A DNA stretch of 64,000 nt, from the NCBI RefSeq assembly GCF_000024985.1, contig NC_013524.1, forward strand, positions 992,001 to 1,056,000. The letters are read 5' to 3'. This DNA comes from Sphaerobacter thermophilus DSM 20745. GTDB taxonomy: Bacteria; Chloroflexota; Chloroflexia; Thermomicrobiales; Thermomicrobiaceae. The notes below the pieces were generated by a model. It was not told where the DNA came from and searched no databases. It worked only from the letters and a program-made list of their open reading frames with translations. The number at the start of each line of letters is the position of its first letter. Positions within the stretch are counted from its first letter, which is position 1. The translations under genes and the position numbers were made by a program. This document shows, piece after piece, positions 2,000 to 13,007 of the stretch.

Positions 2000-2752
2000 C
2001 TACGGTGAACGATAGCCGCCGTAGAGGGCATGGCCTGCGCGGAGCCAGAAGCAGTCGACGGCGGCGAAGCCGGCCTCGCGCAGCCAGACCAACTGGTCAA
2101 ATAGCCTCGATGGCTTATCGACCTCAAGGTCGGGGTCGGCGAAGTGGTTCCAGCCGTTCTGGAAGAAGGCGTAGATCTCCGCTCCGTCGGGGAGATCGGC
2201 GGTCTGCTCCCGCACCACGGCGTCCCACGCGGCGGCGTAGGCGGCCTGGGCGATGGAGTTGACCGGCTCGACCAGATCCAGGATCAACAGTGCGCCGCCC
2301 GGCTCCAGGCGGTCGTAGAGGTCGCGGAACAGCCGCTGCTTGCCGGGGCCGTCGAGGTGGTGGATCGCCAGCGAGGAGACGAAGCAGCGGGCCGGGCCGG
2401 GGAGCGTGTCGAGCCAGTCGCGGGCGAACAGGTCGAAGTGGCGGAGGTCGACGCGACCGGCATAGGGTGCCAGCCGCCGGCGCGCTTCGTCCAGCATGCG
2501 GTGGGAGCCGTCGAGCGCCACGACTTGGCTGGCGGGGAAGCGCTCCAGGATCGCGGCGCTCAACCCACCGGCGCCGCAGGCGAGGTCGACCGCCAGGAAC
2601 GGCTCGTCCGGCCGCACCGGGATCAGGGAGGTGAGCAGGGCGACGTGCTCGGCGCGTGAGGGGGTGATGGCGTCGCCGTAGCGGATGAACGTCGTCGAGT
2701 CGTCCTCCTGCCAGGCAGGTTGGCTGCCGGGCGAGGTCTGGGAGTCGGACAT
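2000..2752 (-). CDS. Class I SAM-dependent methyltransferase
   Basis: A 250-residue methyltransferase with a Rossmann-type SAM-binding fold. Motif I is AVDLACGAGG (about residues 54-63), followed by an acidic strand-2 end at VVALDGSHRM and a post-motif strand LLILDLVEP. The family (Methyltransf_12/25 type) acts on small molecules, and the substrate here is unknown. The start ATG at 2752 follows AAAGG at good spacing. The stop abuts a perfect hairpin. It lies between the CocE hydrolase (same strand, 207 bp further on) and the divergent DedA gene, and shares the short intergenic region at 2753-2907 with it. It could serve the nearby pteridine-like cluster, but only proximity suggests this. Confidence 0.8.
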   Translation of the reverse strand: MSDSQTSPGSQPAWQEDDSTTFIRYGDAITPSRAEHVALLTSLIPVRPDEPFLAVDLACGAGGLSAAILERFPASQVVALDGSHRMLDEARRRLAPYAGRVDLRHFDLFARDWLDTLPGPARCFVSSLAIHHLDGPGKQRLFRDLYDRLEPGGALLILDLVEPVNSIAQAAYAAAWDAVVREQTADLPDGAEIYAFFQNGWNHFADPDLEVDKPSRLFDQLVWLREAGFAAVDCFWLRAGHALYGGYRSP

Positions 2753-3795: not shown

Positions 3796-4569
3796 TTAGC
3801 GGCGCGGAGGTTCGCCGCTGTCCGGGCAGATGTCGCCGATGAGGATGAGGTCGTCGCCCGCGAGGAGGACCCGGCGGCGCTGAAGCGGCAGGGCGTCGGC
3901 CAGGCGGTCGATGCCCAGGTCGCCGACTGCCTCGATCCCGGCGCCCAGGATCTTGGGGGCGATGCAGACGGCCAGCCGGTCCACGACTCCAGCGCGGAGC
4001 GCAGCGGTGATCGTCCGCGCGCCGCCCTCGATCAGCAGCGTCCGGATACCCAACTCGCGAAGCTGATGGAAGGCGTCGGCGAGATCGACCCCTCCACCCG
4101 GGTGGCCTGTGGCGACGATCACGCGTGCACCGGTGTCGCGGATGCAGTCTAGGCGCTCCGGCGGGGCCTGCGCGGTGGTGACGACGAGCGTTTGGTCCGC
4201 CGCGCCGTCGCGCAGCACCGCGGCGTCCAGGGGCAGGCGCAGGCGCGAGTCGAGGATGACCCGCATCGGGCTGGGACCCGCGACCAGGCGGGTCGTGAGG
4301 CGCGGGTCGTCGGCCAGGACGGTGCCGATCCCGACGAGGATGGCGTCGTGCTCCGCGCGCAGGCAGTGGGCGAAGGTGAGCGAGTCGGGGCAACTTACCC
4401 AGCGGGAGTCGCCGCTCCGCGTGGCGATGCGCCCGTCGAGCGTCTGCGCGTAGGCGACGGTCGCCCAGGGGCGGTCTGACGGCGCCGCGCCCTCGGGCGG
4501 GCGGGCGAGTTCCCGCAGGACATCCTCGGTGGCAGCGTCCCCGAGCGCGGGCAGGCGCGGTGGCTCCAC
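3796..4569 (-). CDS. RibD C-terminal-type reductase (dihydrofolate-reductase fold)
   Basis: A 257-residue pyrimidine/pterin-type reductase related to the reductase half of RibD, which normally reduces 5-amino-6-ribosylamino-uracil phosphate with NADPH. Family motifs seen are TLDGRIAT (about 43-50), GIGTVLADDPRLTTR (about 81-95) and IEGGARTI near residue 175. The deaminase half of bifunctional RibD is absent. The start is the GTG at 4569, preceded by AAGGAGGG. It is divergent from a glycosyltransferase with 145 bp between them, which contain a perfect 8-bp inverted repeat. Placement beside a QueD-like protein suggests a pteridine pathway rather than riboflavin itself. No ribAB, ribE or ribH is present. 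The true substrate is inferred, not shown. Confidence 0.82.
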   Translation of the reverse strand: MEPPRLPALGDAATEDVLRELARPPEGAAPSDRPWATVAYAQTLDGRIATRSGDSRWVSCPDSLTFAHCLRAEHDAILVGIGTVLADDPRLTTRLVAGPSPMRVILDSRLRLPLDAAVLRDGAADQTLVVTTAQAPPERLDCIRDTGARVIVATGHPGGGVDLADAFHQLRELGIRTLLIEGGARTITAALRAGVVDRLAVCIAPKILGAGIEAVGDLGIDRLADALPLQRRRVLLAGDDLILIGDICPDSGEPPRR

Positions 4570-4654: not shown

Positions 4655-4714
4655 TGCGGCGGCACTCACCCGCCGCGGCATCAGCCGCTCGCACGCACGA
4701 AGGAGGACGAGACG

Positions 4715-5791
4715 CTGCGCCTCGTGCTGGTCACTGCTGGCGATCCGCAGCGGCTGACCGGGGGCCATCTGTACCACCGGCGCATCGCTGAGACGGCGCC
4801 GCGCCACGGCGCCTGCGTGCGCTTCGCTGCGATCCCGGAACGGCCGCTCGGGCTGGCTGCGGCAGCGGGTGCGGTCACGCTCGCCCGCCTGCGGGCAGAA
4901 CGGCCCGACGCGCTCCTGGTCGACAGCATCGCGACGGCCGCCCTGATGCTGCCGCTGCGCGCCCGGCACGTGGGCGTGCCGGTGATCGGGCTCCTCCACC
5001 AGCCGCCGGGCGGGGTGCGGCGCGACGGTGACGTGGGCCGTGGCGGCTTGCGCGCCCGCCTTGATCGGGCGTTCGCCGCGCGGGCCGACCGGGTGATCGT
5101 GCCGAGTGCGACGCTGGCGACCACGCTGCGGCAGACGGGCATCTCGGAGGACCGGTTGCACGTCGTCCCACCTGGGTACGACCTGCCGGAGCCGGGCGGC
5201 CCGGTGCCGGACCTACGCCGGGCCGGTGGACCGGCGATCCTCTGCGTGGCGAACTGGTTGCCGGCCAAGGGGATCGATCTGCTGCTGGAGGCGTTCGCGC
5301 GGCTACCGGACGAGCGTGCGACGCTGCACCTGGTCGGGGAGACGACGGCTGATCCAGCCTATGCCCGGCGGCTGAATGCCAGGCTGGCCACACCGGAGCT
5401 GCGGGAGCGGGTGGTGGTGCACGGGCCGCGCCCGCCGGAGGTCGTCGCCGCGTACCTCCGGGCATCCGACCTCTTCGTGCTGGCGAGCTGGTCGGAGTCG
5501 TACGGCATGGCGGTCGCAGAGGCGATGGCAGCCGGGCTACCGATCGTTGCGACGCGAGTCGGTCACCTCCCCTGCCTGGTGGTGGACGGCGTCACAGGGC
5601 TGCTCGTGCCGCCGGGGGACGCCGACGCGCTAGGCACGGCCATGGGACGTCTGGTGGCTGACGCGGGGCTCCGGCGCGCGATGGGGGTAGCCGCCGAGCG
5701 CCGCGCGGTGTCCTTCCCCCGCTGGGACGATACGGCAGCCGGAGTCATCGCCGTCGTGCGCGAGGCGATCGCGGGCGGGCACGGGTTGTGA
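4715..5791 (+). CDS. GT4-family glycosyltransferase, probable CTG start
   Basis: About 358 residues with the GT-B fold of family GT4 retaining glycosyltransferases. The acceptor half begins LVLVTAGDPQRLTGGHLYHRR. The donor half carries CVANWLPAKGIDLLLEAF and the ExxxxxxxE motif in ESYGMAVAEAM, which contacts the nucleotide sugar. The start is unusual. AGGAGG at 4701-4706 points to CTG at 4715 (8-nt spacing); the next in-frame GTG at 4724 is 17 nt away, and upstream in-frame codons are not family-like. It is followed by the MDR dehydrogenase 14 bp later. In this context it may glycosylate a pteridine or nucleoside-like product; that is inference. Confidence 0.85.
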   Translation: MRLVLVTAGDPQRLTGGHLYHRRIAETAPRHGACVRFAAIPERPLGLAAAAGAVTLARLRAERPDALLVDSIATAALMLPLRARHVGVPVIGLLHQPPGGVRRDGDVGRGGLRARLDRAFAARADRVIVPSATLATTLRQTGISEDRLHVVPPGYDLPEPGGPVPDLRRAGGPAILCVANWLPAKGIDLLLEAFARLPDERATLHLVGETTADPAYARRLNARLATPELRERVVVHGPRPPEVVAAYLRASDLFVLASWSESYGMAVAEAMAAGLPIVATRVGHLPCLVVDGVTGLLVPPGDADALGTAMGRLVADAGLRRAMGVAAERRAVSFPRWDDTAAGVIAVVREAIAGGHGL

Positions 5792-5805
5792 GAGAGGAGC
5801 GCGGG

Positions 5806-6816
5806 ATGGAGGCACGGGCCGTGTGGCTGACCGGGCCGCGGCAGGTCGAGATCCGAACGGAGCCCTTGCCGCCGGTCGGGCCGGACCACGTCCTCGTTCG
5901 CGCGCGCCTCTCGGCCATCAGTCACGGCACGGAGATGCTCGTCTATCGGGGCGAGGTACCGACTCACCTGCCGCTGGACCTGCCGACGCTGGCGGGCAGC
6001 TTCGCCTACCCCATCAAGTACGGCTACGCCAGCGTCGGAGAGATCGAGGAGGCCGGACCGGAGGTGGAGACACTCCGGCCGGGTGACCTGATCTTTGCCT
6101 TGCATCCGCACCAGGACCGTTACATCATCCCCGCGCGGCTGGCCGTGCCGCTACCTGCCGGTCTGGACCCGGCGGCAGGGGTCTTCGTGGCGAACCTGGA
6201 AACTGCGGTCAACGTGCTGCTCGACACACCGCTGCGCTTCGGGGAGACGGCTGTGGTGTTCGGGCAGGGCGTGGTCGGCCTGCTCATCACGATGCTCTTG
6301 CGCCGGGCGGGGGCGCGCGACATCATCGCCGTCGATCCGGTACCCGCGCGGCGGGAGCGCGCGCTGGCCGCCGGGGCGAGCGTGGCCCTCGCGCCGGACG
6401 ACGACCTGCCGCGCCACGTCCGCGAGCGAACGGCCGGCCGGGGTGCGGATGTCGCCGTCGAGGCGAGCGGCGCGCCTGCTGCGCTGAGCCAGGCGTTGTC
6501 GGTCCTCACGGTGCAGGGCACGGTCGTGGTGGCGTCCTGGTACGGAACGAAGCCGGTTGCGCTGGATCTCGGTTCCGAGTTCCACCGGCGGCGACTGCGG
6601 ATCGTCAGCTCGCAGGTGGGGACGATCGATCCGGCGCTTAGTCCGCGCTGGACGCACGAGCGGCGGCGCGACCTCGTGTGCGCGCTCCTGGAGGAGCTCC
6701 CGCTGGCCGACCTCATCACCCATCGGGTGCCGTTTACCCGCGCGGCCGAGGCCTACCGCCTGATCGACACGCGTCCGGCTGAGGTGCTGCAGGTAGTGCT
6801 GAAGTATGGGAAGTGA
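5806..6816 (+). CDS. MDR-family (zinc-type alcohol) dehydrogenase without the usual zinc ligands
   Basis: A 336-residue medium-chain dehydrogenase/reductase. The Rossmann fingerprint GQGVVG follows AVVF near residue 150, and the catalytic domain begins with PLPPVGPDHVLVRARLSAISHGTEM. Where zinc alcohol dehydrogenases have a catalytic cysteine this protein has Ile/Ser, and it has a single cysteine overall, so neither catalytic nor structural zinc is expected. The start is the ATG at 5806, after GAGAGGAG. An in-frame GTG at 5788 overlaps the previous stop but has no good ribosome-binding site. It is translationally close to the glycosyltransferase and upstream of the QueD-like gene. Confidence 0.83.
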   Translation: MEARAVWLTGPRQVEIRTEPLPPVGPDHVLVRARLSAISHGTEMLVYRGEVPTHLPLDLPTLAGSFAYPIKYGYASVGEIEEAGPEVETLRPGDLIFALHPHQDRYIIPARLAVPLPAGLDPAAGVFVANLETAVNVLLDTPLRFGETAVVFGQGVVGLLITMLLRRAGARDIIAVDPVPARRERALAAGASVALAPDDDLPRHVRERTAGRGADVAVEASGAPAALSQALSVLTVQGTVVVASWYGTKPVALDLGSEFHRRRLRIVSSQVGTIDPALSPRWTHERRRDLVCALLEELPLADLITHRVPFTRAAEAYRLIDTRPAEVLQVVLKYGK

Positions 6817-6819
6817 GTC

Positions 6820-6965
6820 GTCATGCGTGATGCGTGTTCCGTGTTCCGTATTGCGTGTTGGGACCCCCTCGCCCCCGGCCCCTCTCGGACGGAGCCCACC
6901 AGGGGAGAGGGGAGCAACATGAACCACATCGTACGGGTGACGCATGACGCATCATGCATGACGCT
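6820..6965. repeat. Heptamer repeat/hairpin element, copy 1
   Basis: Degenerate 7-bp units of the type ATGCGTG/GTTCCGT flank a GC-rich stretch with the CCCCTCTC...GAGAGGGG palindrome, then run in inverted orientation (TGACGCA units) on the other side. It lies between the dehydrogenase and the QueD-like gene. The same architecture recurs at 26846-26965, 34198-34330 and 48006-48150. Confidence 0.6.
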
Positions 6966-6986
6966 TGACCAACGAAAGGCGGCTCC

Positions 6987-7364
6987 ATGTTCGCAATCGG
7001 GGTGGTGGCGCAGTTTGAGGCGGCGCACCGGCTGCGGGGTGACTTCGGCCCTGCGAGCCGGCTGCACGGGCACACCTACCGGGTAGAGGTCGAAGTCGCT
7101 GGGCCGCAGCTCAACGACGACGGCACGCTGTTCGACCTCGGGCTGCTGAAAGCCTGGGTCGACGAGGCCGTGGGTGAGTTGAACTACCAGAACCTGGACG
7201 TCCTCCCGGCGTTCGCCCAGCGCAACTCGACGGCCGAGGAGGTGGCCCGGTTCCTCCGTGAGACGCTTGCACCCCGGCTGCACGGGAAAGGGTTGCGGAT
7301 GCTGACCGTCCGCGTGTGGGAGTCCCCGCAGGCGTACGCCGCCTGTCAGTGGGAGCTGCTGTGA
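6987..7364 (+). CDS. 6-pyruvoyl-tetrahydropterin synthase/QueD family protein, catalytic residues replaced
   Basis: A 125-residue T-fold protein of the PTPS/QueD family. The zinc-binding histidines are kept: H14 in FEAAH and H27, H29 in LHGHTY. The pterin-anchoring Glu in VRVWES (E112) is also kept. The catalytic triad is not. The cysteine four residues before HGH is Ala23, and the Asp-His pair of the usual DHxxLN motif reads Asn66-Tyr67. It can therefore probably bind zinc and a pterin-like ligand but should not do standard QueD or PTPS chemistry. The start ATG at 6987 follows AAAGGCGG. It is the last gene of the pteridine-like cluster and ends at a strong terminator. Confidence 0.85.
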   Translation: MFAIGVVAQFEAAHRLRGDFGPASRLHGHTYRVEVEVAGPQLNDDGTLFDLGLLKAWVDEAVGELNYQNLDVLPAFAQRNSTAEEVARFLRETLAPRLHGKGLRMLTVRVWESPQAYAACQWELL

Positions 7365-9854: not shown

Positions 9855-10061
9855 ATGGTGGAGCGCGTGTATCGCGTACCGGACGTAAGTTGTGCGCACT
9901 GCGTGAATGCCATCACGCAGGCACTGAGCCGCATCCCGGGCGTGGAGGCGGTCCAGGTCGACCTCGACACGAAGCTCGTGAAGGTGCAGGCCGGCGAGAG
10001 CGTCTCCGACGCGGATATCCGCGCTGGGATCGAAGAGGCCGGTTACGACATCGCGGCGTAG
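9855..10061 (+). CDS. copZ: Copper chaperone (heavy-metal-associated domain)
   Basis: A 68-residue ferredoxin-like HMA domain. The metal site is the Cys pair in DVSCAHCVNAI (CxxC), and the rest follows the beta-alpha-beta-beta-alpha-beta pattern through GVEAVQVDLDTKLVKV and AGIEEAGYDIAA. It should carry Cu(I) in the cytosol to an exporter. The start ATG at 9855 follows AAGGAG by 8 nt. The promoter carries a CsoR-like operator closely matching the one at the copper ATPase 36 kb away, which is its likely partner. It is a single gene, followed by a hairpin. Confidence 0.88.
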   Translation: MVERVYRVPDVSCAHCVNAITQALSRIPGVEAVQVDLDTKLVKVQAGESVSDADIRAGIEEAGYDIAA

Positions 10062-10069
10062 TCCGTGCC

Positions 10070-10119
10070 ACGGAGGGGCGGCTCGATGGGGCAACGCCCT
10101 GTGGCCGCTTCCCTCCGGT
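10070..10119 (+). terminator. Long hairpin after copZ
   Basis: ACGGAGGG/CCCTCCGGT and GCGGC/GCCGC pair around an inner GGGC/GCCC loop stem, starting 9 bp after the copZ stop. It has no U-tract, so the terminator assignment is tentative. Confidence 0.4.
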
Positions 10120-10213
10120 CCCGCATACCACCCGCTGATCCTCCCACACAGGACAGGACAATCGAACCGAGCGATCCTGGACGATGCGGCAGCGCGCGCC
10201 GGATGCATGGTGA

Positions 10214-10235
10214 TACAATGTTGTCACGATGTGAC
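10214..10235 (+). promoter_or_regulatory. Putative -10 box and GTCAC-N3-GTGAC palindrome upstream of GGDEF-STAND gene
   Basis: TACAAT at 10214-10219 resembles a -10 element, though no good -35 is seen. GTCAC-gat-GTGAC (10223-10235) follows it and could be an operator. Confidence 0.35.
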
Positions 10236-10283
10236 TGAAGCGCAGGCGTGCTTCTCTGCCCTGGACCGAGCAGGAGTCCAGCG

Positions 10284-13007
10284 ATGCTCTCTGCCAGCGA
10301 CGGCCGGTCGAGGTCGGATGGAACCGAGCGGGATCCGCTGACTGGAGCGCTCTCCCGCGCGTGGCTCGACGATGTTCTGGCGGAGCAGGTTGCGGCTGCC
10401 AGAGAAACTGGCCGGCCGCTTTCGGTGGCGGTCCTCGACCTGGACTACTTCAAGAGCGTCAACGATGCCTACGGCCACCGGCGGGGCGACCGCGTCCTCC
10501 GGGCGCTGGTGGAACGGCTACAGGCCAATATCCGGAGGACGGATCGGCTGTTCCGCATCGGTGGGGATGAGTTCGTCCTGGTGCTCCCCGGGACATCGGC
10601 GGCGCAGGCCTCGGCGATTGCCGCACGGCTCCTCGCGGAGGTGGAGACGATGCCCTTTGAAGGCGATCCACCGCTGACGCTCAGCCTCTCGCTTGGGATC
10701 GCCACGTTCCCCGATGATGCCGAGACGCCGAACGCACTGCTGGACATCGCGGACCGCCGCCGCTTCGCAGCGAAGCGAGCGGGGCGCGGCCGCGCGCTAA
10801 CGCGCGAGGGGGTGGTGCTGCCGGCCAGCGCTCCCGGTACCCAGGGGGATGCCGCAACTGCCGGTCGAGCAGGCGAGGCAGATCTGATCGGCCGGCAAAC
10901 CGAGGTCAGCGAGATCCTGGAGCGGCTCGGGCGCGCCCGGCTGCTGACGCTGACCGGCCCTGCCGGGGTTGGGAAGACCGGGCTGGCGCGGCACATCATG
11001 GAGCTGCTGCGCGGCGCGTTCGCCGACGGGGTCGTCTATCTGCCGTTGGCACACGTTGTCGAGCCGTCCATGGTGCCGGCGGTGCTCTCCGCGGCGCTGG
11101 GGTTTGGAGTGCCTACCGGACAGCGCAACCGGGAACCGCCGGCCGAGGTGCTGCGGGCGCGCGAGCAACTGGTCGTCATCGACCACTTCGACCGGCTACG
11201 GGACGCCGCGCCGCTGCTGACGGAACTGCTGGCCGTGGCGCCGGGGTTGAAGATCCTGGTGACGTGCCGTCGCCCGCTGCGTCTCTACGGCGAGCACGTC
11301 TACCCGGTGCCGCCGCTGGCAGTCGGGGACACCGAGACGGCGCCTGCTGTCGCCCTGTTCCTCGCGCGCGCGAGCGTGCGCTCCAGCTCGAATGCCCCGG
11401 TAGGGGAGGCTGTGGCGGCGCTCTGCGCCCGGCTCGGTGGGCTGCCACTGGCGATCGAGCTGGCGGCGGCGTGGACGGCACGCTACCCGGTCGAGGACCT
11501 GCTGGCATCGCTCCCGGGAGGCGGAGAGCCGGGGGAGGAGGTGAACCCCGGCGACGCGCTCCGCGATCTGCTCGACTGGAGCTACCGGGTGTTGACACCG
11601 GAGCAGCGACGGCGCTGGACTCGGCTGGCCGTCTTTGCCGGAGGCTGGTCGGTCGAGGCGGCCCGGGCGGTCGTCGAGGAGCCACCGGCAACGGCCCCGG
11701 AGGTAGAGGCCGCCCTGGACGCGCTGGCCGAGGTCGGTCTGATCCGTCCGGTGAGCGACGCGGCGAACCCGCCGCGGTTCACGATGCCCGGGGCGATCCG
11801 AGAAGCGGCGCTGGCCCGGCTGGAGGTGACAGGCGAGGCGGACGTGATCCACGCCCGGCACGCAGCCTGGTATCTGACGCTCGCCGAGACGGCTTTCGCG
11901 CATCACCGCGGAGCGGACCACAAGCGGTGGCTCGACCGGCTCGATGAGGAGTACGACAACCTGCGCGGCGCGCTCGGTCATGCGCTTGCGAAAGGTGACA
12001 TAACGACTGCCGCGCGGCTCGGGGCGGTCCTGTGGCGGTTCTGGGAGCGTCGGGGATGGGCGGCCGAGGGCCGGGAATGGCTCGCATCGATCCTGGAACA
12101 CCGGATGGCGCTCCCGCCGGAGATCGAAGCGGAGGTGCTGAACGGAGCCGGCGTGCTGGCCTGGTTCCAGGGGGATCTGGAGGAGGCGCGTGACCGGCTC
12201 GAAGCCAGCCTGGCGATTTCATCGAGGCTGGGCGACGCCGCGGCGATGGCGCGCGATCTCAACAATCTCGGACTGGTGCTCCGGCAGCAGGGGGACTATG
12301 CGGCTGCCGAGGCGCACTTTACCCGCTGCCTCGAAGTGCAGCGCTCGGCGGGAGATGCCTGGGGGCAGTCGATCACGCTCGGTAATCTCGCCGAGCTCGC
12401 GGTGCTGCAGGGCGACGGGCCCGCCGCGCGTCGGATGGCGGGGGAGTGTCTCGCCATTACCCGGGATGTCGACGATCAGCGGCTGCGTGCTCTGGCCCTC
12501 TGCACCACCGGCGTCGTCCTGCTCGACCAGGGCGAAACCGAAAGTGCGCGCACGGCGCTCGGCGAGTGCCTGGCGCTGGCTGAGAGCTTGGCCGACCCGC
12601 GGACGACCGCCCGCTGCCTGACCGGTCTCGGTGTGGTGGCGCTGATGCAGCGGCGGAGTGCTGCGGCAGCGGACCTGCTCGGCCGCGCGCTGGATCTGTG
12701 GTCACAGATCGGCGATCGCGCCGGTCTCCTGGAGTCACTCAGCGGCCTGGCGGGCGTGGCCGGGACCAGTGGCAACGTGCTGGATGCCGCCAGACTCTAC
12801 GGGGCAGTTGACGCTATGCACCGGGGAGCCGGCGTGCACGAGCCGCTCCTGCTGCGCCGGGCGCTCGAGCGGGTCGAGGCTGGCATCAAGGTTCAGGTCT
12901 CCCCTGAGGCATGGTCCGCGTCCTGGGGTGAGGGGCAGGCCCTGACGCTGGAGCAAGCACTCGCGCTCGCGCGCGAGGTGGCGGGCAGGGAAGCGTCGGC
13001 TGACTGA
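10284..13007 (+). CDS. GGDEF domain fused to STAND ATPase and TPR repeats (protein 1)
   Basis: A 907-residue cytoplasmic protein. Residues 1-165 are a diguanylate cyclase domain with intact features: the metal and FK motif LDLDYFKSVNDAYGH, the signature GGDEF (93-97) and the inhibitory I-site RxxD (84-87). Residues about 200-500 are an NB-ARC/STAND ATPase with Walker A GPAGVGKTG (225-233) and Walker B LVVIDHFD. From about 530 to the end are TPR-like helical repeats. The DNA-binding domain usual in such MalT/AfsR-like proteins is missing, with GGDEF in its place. It probably makes c-di-GMP under ligand control by the sensor modules; this is inference. The start is the ATG at 10284, after AGGAG. 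A longer paralogue lies at 23375-26845. Confidence 0.85.
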   Translation: MLSASDGRSRSDGTERDPLTGALSRAWLDDVLAEQVAAARETGRPLSVAVLDLDYFKSVNDAYGHRRGDRVLRALVERLQANIRRTDRLFRIGGDEFVLVLPGTSAAQASAIAARLLAEVETMPFEGDPPLTLSLSLGIATFPDDAETPNALLDIADRRRFAAKRAGRGRALTREGVVLPASAPGTQGDAATAGRAGEADLIGRQTEVSEILERLGRARLLTLTGPAGVGKTGLARHIMELLRGAFADGVVYLPLAHVVEPSMVPAVLSAALGFGVPTGQRNREPPAEVLRAREQLVVIDHFDRLRDAAPLLTELLAVAPGLKILVTCRRPLRLYGEHVYPVPPLAVGDTETAPAVALFLARASVRSSSNAPVGEAVAALCARLGGLPLAIELAAAWTARYPVEDLLASLPGGGEPGEEVNPGDALRDLLDWSYRVLTPEQRRRWTRLAVFAGGWSVEAARAVVEEPPATAPEVEAALDALAEVGLIRPVSDAANPPRFTMPGAIREAALARLEVTGEADVIHARHAAWYLTLAETAFAHHRGADHKRWLDRLDEEYDNLRGALGHALAKGDITTAARLGAVLWRFWERRGWAAEGREWLASILEHRMALPPEIEAEVLNGAGVLAWFQGDLEEARDRLEASLAISSRLGDAAAMARDLNNLGLVLRQQGDYAAAEAHFTRCLEVQRSAGDAWGQSITLGNLAELAVLQGDGPAARRMAGECLAITRDVDDQRLRALALCTTGVVLLDQGETESARTALGECLALAESLADPRTTARCLTGLGVVALMQRRSAAAADLLGRALDLWSQIGDRAGLLESLSGLAGVAGTSGNVLDAARLYGAVDAMHRGAGVHEPLLLRRALERVEAGIKVQVSPEAWSASWGEGQALTLEQALALAREVAGREASAD

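Follow-up and report, generated by a model that had tools for sequence, protein, structure and literature searches.

On sequence and predicted structure, the product of the gene at 6987..7364 (+ strand) in the 64,000 nt of Sphaerobacter thermophilus DSM 20745 DNA analyzed here (the window) is a relative of QueD that falls within PTPS-IV, a known subfamily with a solved structure available. The protein is probably, on balance, a T-fold enzyme in a conserved RibD/MDR/GT4 pathway, which would convert a GTP-derived pyrimidine or pterin to a glycosylated product.

Family assignment and predicted structure

The putative protein (125 aa, with an ATG start; assigned by its translation, Pfam match, PDB alignment and structural model) scores 112.5 bits against the Pfam PTPS family (PF01242; cut-off 22.4), and is the sole PF01242 protein in the S. 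thermophilus genome (3,993,764 bases, in two contigs). Orthologues occur in the same context in two other Sphaerobacter genomes (98 and 85% identity) and across the class (~50-62%), in each case with the neighbours conserved, and rule out a pseudogene, a frame error or a chance ORF. The closest sequence in the PDB is SCO6650 of Streptomyces coelicolor (3D7J; E 1.5e-18). A structure prediction overlaid on E. coli QueD had been proposed in the first-pass annotation; the AlphaFold2 model (pLDDT 96.5) does have the fold expected, which together with the Pfam score places the protein in the T-fold PTPS superfamily, but it lies nearest to 3D7J (Z 19.4, 1.1 A over 124 residues, 43% identity), ahead of the QueD entries and other PTPS structures (Z 17.1 or less).

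The PTPS-IV subfamily has been named in a survey, with FGPAQ as its signature and PF00925 and PF01872 (GTP cyclohydrolase II and RibD_C) genes nearby (PMC5445326). The window protein has FGPAS-R-LHG, the final letter of the signature differing from the published one; relatives carry FGPA[QTS]R, and a scan of named GTDB genomes found the motif FGPA[QTS]R[LMI]HG in PTPS relatives in at least 580 places. Of the two neighbours, RibD_C adjoins the cluster in S. thermophilus, while GTP cyclohydrolase II is encoded elsewhere, but is adjacent in Chloroflexota relatives.

SCO6650 (FGPAQRLHGA and LNYRNLD in the PDB alignment) resembles the window protein in its T-fold, its FGPA-x-R signature, an Ala at the position of the catalytic Cys, and an Asn-Tyr pair replacing Asp-His; Streptomyces relatives also share the MDR and GT4 neighbours. 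The two differ in that SCO6650 has HGA, with a zinc histidine gone, for HGH in the window protein, and FGPAQ for FGPAS; the clusters differ in that RibD is reversed and GT4 upstream in Sphaerobacter.

Several other PTPS-like proteins were encountered. One genome of the class has two consecutive PTPS-IV copies inside the cluster (L054:6734-7150 and 10029-11312), and many Chloroflexota class members encode tandem two-domain PTPS-like proteins of ~280 aa, a separate type (e.g., G029:C1:4799415-4800110). In a related genus (L059:5991-6509 and L006-L008), the RibD/MDR/GT4 cluster includes a highly divergent PTPS in which WGPE replaces FGPA, Glu replaces the Cys, and HSHH replaces HGHT. Two lookalikes (L057 and L058; ~34-37% identity) have the canonical Cys and Asp-His residues and were treated separately.

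Active-site residues

Alignments to E. coli QueD and to PDB chains bear out the first-pass reading of Ala23 at the catalytic Cys position and of Asn66-Tyr67 in place of Asp-His; H14, H27, H29, and E112, described there as intact, are so in both translation and alignment. In sequence, the zinc-type histidines (H14/H27/H29) and a pterin-type anchor (N80/E84/E112) are both retained. The suggestion that Ala, Asn, and Tyr might form a fixed set in close homologues fared less well. Among 47 sampled sequences Ala23 is essentially fixed (46/47), but both of the other positions vary: position 66 is Asn in 21, His in 19, Asp in 3, Ser in 3, and Arg in 1, and position 67 is Tyr in 31, Phe in 9, Leu in 6, and Asp in 1, with His in none. 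Position 66 is unconstrained, being Asn, His, or Asp even among members of this genus: the S. thermophilus protein has Asn66, and its 85%-identical Sphaerobacter relative Asp66. No variation occurs at H14, H27, D50, E84, or E112 in the 47 sequences, and the H29 position is divided between His (22) and Ala (25).

In a tree of PTPS-IV (133 columns, short search), the HGA proteins, from Actinomycetota, Pseudomonadota, and Myxococcota, are all separated from the rest by one branch (100% support), consistent with a loss of the zinc histidine that apparently happened once. HGH survives only in Chloroflexota, Thermomicrobiota, and Rubrobacter members, most of which have His at position 66. Since the sister clade has lost the ligand, zinc must be dispensable in some PTPS-IV proteins, and comparison of the zinc-keeping and zinc-losing groups offers a clean natural experiment on the function of the site.

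With the PTPS/QueD triad absent and the pterin-anchor residues still in place, standard QueD chemistry is unlikely, as first proposed; the accompanying idea that the protein departs from all established subtypes does not survive the match to PTPS-IV. The 2008 paper on 3D7J reportedly describes SCO6650 as lacking zinc, the triad, and PTPS activity while keeping residues for a pterin-like ligand, so that a lost triad with a preserved ring site is a state already described. The residue changes being known, a PTPS-IV protein by itself is unsurprising. Members of the subfamily may lack PTPS activity, as SCO6650 reportedly does, and catalyze a reaction of their own instead.

Comparison with QueD and PTPS-III

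E. coli QueD (PTPS-I) has the same T-fold and zinc-ligand histidines, with 31% identity over 89 aligned columns, and, like the window protein, a ring-anchoring Glu. The catalytic residues differ: the window protein is without the Cys, Asp, and His (AxxxHGH and Asn-Tyr, vs. CxxxHGH and Asp-His in QueD). It scores 60.6 bits against the QueD equivalog model TIGR03367, under the cut-off of 89.25; there are no queuosine genes near it; and a search of the S. thermophilus genome for QueE gave no match at E 0.001 (the same search was positive in 10 control genomes). Residues, model score, neighbourhood, and missing QueE together rule out its identification as QueD. This genome, which has neither QueE nor a second PTPS, does encode a lone QueC homologue (L152:6904-7596; 244 bits), adjoining the gene for a YchF-like GTPase. 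De novo queuosine synthesis by way of the window protein is unlikely, because the only PF01242 protein is accompanied by a QueC on its own and no QueE.

PTPS-III proteins (folate bypass) likewise share the fold and have the Cys replaced. Their replacement is Glu (ExxHGH), however, where the window protein has Ala23-Ser24, and its gene is outside any folate operon.

Gene neighbourhood and conservation of the cluster

In the window, a RibD_C-type reductase gene (3796..4569, - strand; above cut-off for TIGR00227) is divergent from a run on the + strand consisting of genes for a GT4-family glycosyltransferase (4712..5791), an MDR-family dehydrogenase (5788..6816), and the PTPS-IV protein. In class members RibD, MDR, PTPS, and GT4 usually form a single run. 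The GT4 ORF is listed as starting at 4529, a start that overlaps ribD; this overlap and sequence similarity suggest a true start near 4712. The MDR protein (342 aa) matches ADH_zinc_N, and its best NCBIfam model is BchC, far under cut-off. It has a conserved SxGTE motif at the usual place of the Cys ligand in zinc-dependent alcohol dehydrogenases, so the label “zinc-binding dehydrogenase” may mislead. The space between the MDR and PTPS genes (6817-6986) is taken up by an intergenic repeat containing inverted segments, present in dozens of copies in the genome (71-96% identity, among 63 matches listed). A class I SAM methyltransferase gene (2000..2752, - strand) is adjacent in the three Sphaerobacter genomes only and may not be part of the module; it is of a different family from the methyltransferase of the actinobacterial clusters.

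Conservation was counted with HMMs built from the clusters over 101 PTPS loci, a total that includes some fetched twice, two canonical PTPS, and one solitary gene. A GT4 is present in 96 of these and an MDR dehydrogenase match within 8.5 kb in 94, followed by RibD_C (61), methyltransferase (58), GTP cyclohydrolase II (52), CDP-alcohol phosphotransferase (47), LPG-synthase-TM (39), and creatininase (29); the families found did not include FolE. The conserved module consists of MDR, PTPS-IV, and GT4; a RibD-type reductase usually accompanies it, and GTP cyclohydrolase II, a methyltransferase, and a creatininase-type amidohydrolase are frequent additions.

The GTP cyclohydrolase II sequences differ according to whether a creatininase-type gene is present. 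With one, the usual Tyr is Met, His, or Cys in 24 of 27 scorable loci; without one, the Tyr is kept in all 23 that could be scored. The Tyr to Met change reportedly makes SCO6655 stop at a formylated intermediate, which points to a possible deformylase role for the creatininase-type protein. On the tree, however, the Tyr was lost in a single event, making this association one observation rather than many, and the cluster creatininases score better against the models for MftE and creatininase than against the one for the ArfB deformylase, all below cut-off. For both reasons the deformylase role is kept here as a hint only. S. thermophilus has one GTP cyclohydrolase II, encoded away from the cluster, and its creatininases are likewise outside; it also has FolE, which produces dihydroneopterin triphosphate.

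Possible functions

The first-pass annotation had left a choice between a new reaction and a binding-only role, and conservation of the cluster favors an enzyme or pathway role, as far as sequence can indicate. In the pathway preferred here, whose substrate, reaction, order of steps, and product are all proposals, GTP cyclohydrolase II would first open GTP, and in some lineages the creatininase-type amidohydrolase would take off the formyl group. Reduction by the RibD-type enzyme would then yield a 2-amino-4-oxo-pyrimidine (or derived pterin) whose side chain is a sugar or ribityl group; PTPS-IV would grip the 2-amino-4-oxo ring via E112 and rearrange or cleave this side chain; the MDR enzyme would alter a carbonyl or alcohol; and GT4 would attach a sugar, with methylation as the last step in many clusters. 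In S. thermophilus the precursor would be supplied by the organism's one GTP cyclohydrolase II, whose gene is outside the cluster.

The location of that gene and of the creatininases outside the cluster weakens the proposal, as does the presence of FolE, which may supply a pterin substrate in this organism. So does the loss of a zinc ligand throughout the HGA clade, which shows that zinc is not universally required. A more specific version can be put forward only tentatively, and we consider it possible rather than probable: PTPS-IV would catalyze an undescribed reaction on a diaminopyrimidine derived from GTP cyclohydrolase II, zinc-dependent in Chloroflexota and Thermomicrobiota and zinc-free in the other clade, and this would be a core step of an undiscovered pathway, present in hundreds of genomes from several phyla, that leads to a glycosylated cofactor or metabolite of the pterin or pyrimidine type.

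Alternatively, the protein might be a pseudoenzyme that is non-catalytic and serves the neighbouring enzymes as a scaffold, carrier, or regulator, with a bound ligand of pterin or pyrimidine type. The changes at three catalytic positions, the invariance of the ring-anchor residues, and the absence of one zinc histidine from a whole clade with the same cluster are what such a protein might display; invariance at H14, H27, D50, E84, and E112 and a gene association that crosses phyla are more typical of a pathway enzyme, however, and the HGH clade retains three zinc ligands. We regard this alternative as unlikely.

An improbable further reading is that PTPS-IV does act on dihydroneopterin triphosphate in the manner of QueD or PTPS, with other residues standing in for the lost ones (e.g., H66/Y67, with bound zinc), en route to a pterin glycoside. 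A PTPS, a ketone reductase, and a GT4 together resemble the known route to a pterin glycoside, tetrahydrobiopterin glucoside, and this likeness of the gene set, FolE in the genome, and His at position 66 in most of the HGH clade would all fit. But the S. thermophilus protein has Asn at this position and its close relative Asp, the neighbours are GTP cyclohydrolase II and RibD with FolE missing from the cluster families, and SCO6650 is said to be inactive as a PTPS.

A role in coenzyme F420 synthesis is rejected as very improbable: a review counts PTPS-IV as an F420 enzyme, citing unpublished work (PMC5041015), and FO synthesis is also fed by GTP cyclohydrolase II and RibD, but CofH (FO synthase) is absent from S. 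thermophilus and its congeners, and genomes of the same family that have CofH (G010-G020) have no PTPS-IV, so that the two never occur together within the family.

A literature search on SCO6650, PTPS-IV, and the cluster found no account of function and no assigned product. The interest of the S. thermophilus protein lies in the MDR/PTPS-IV/GT4/RibD module, found in several bacterial phyla and without an assigned product in the literature searched. If the pathway proposed here is correct, the module would encode the synthesis of a sugar-linked small molecule of the pterin or pyrimidine type.
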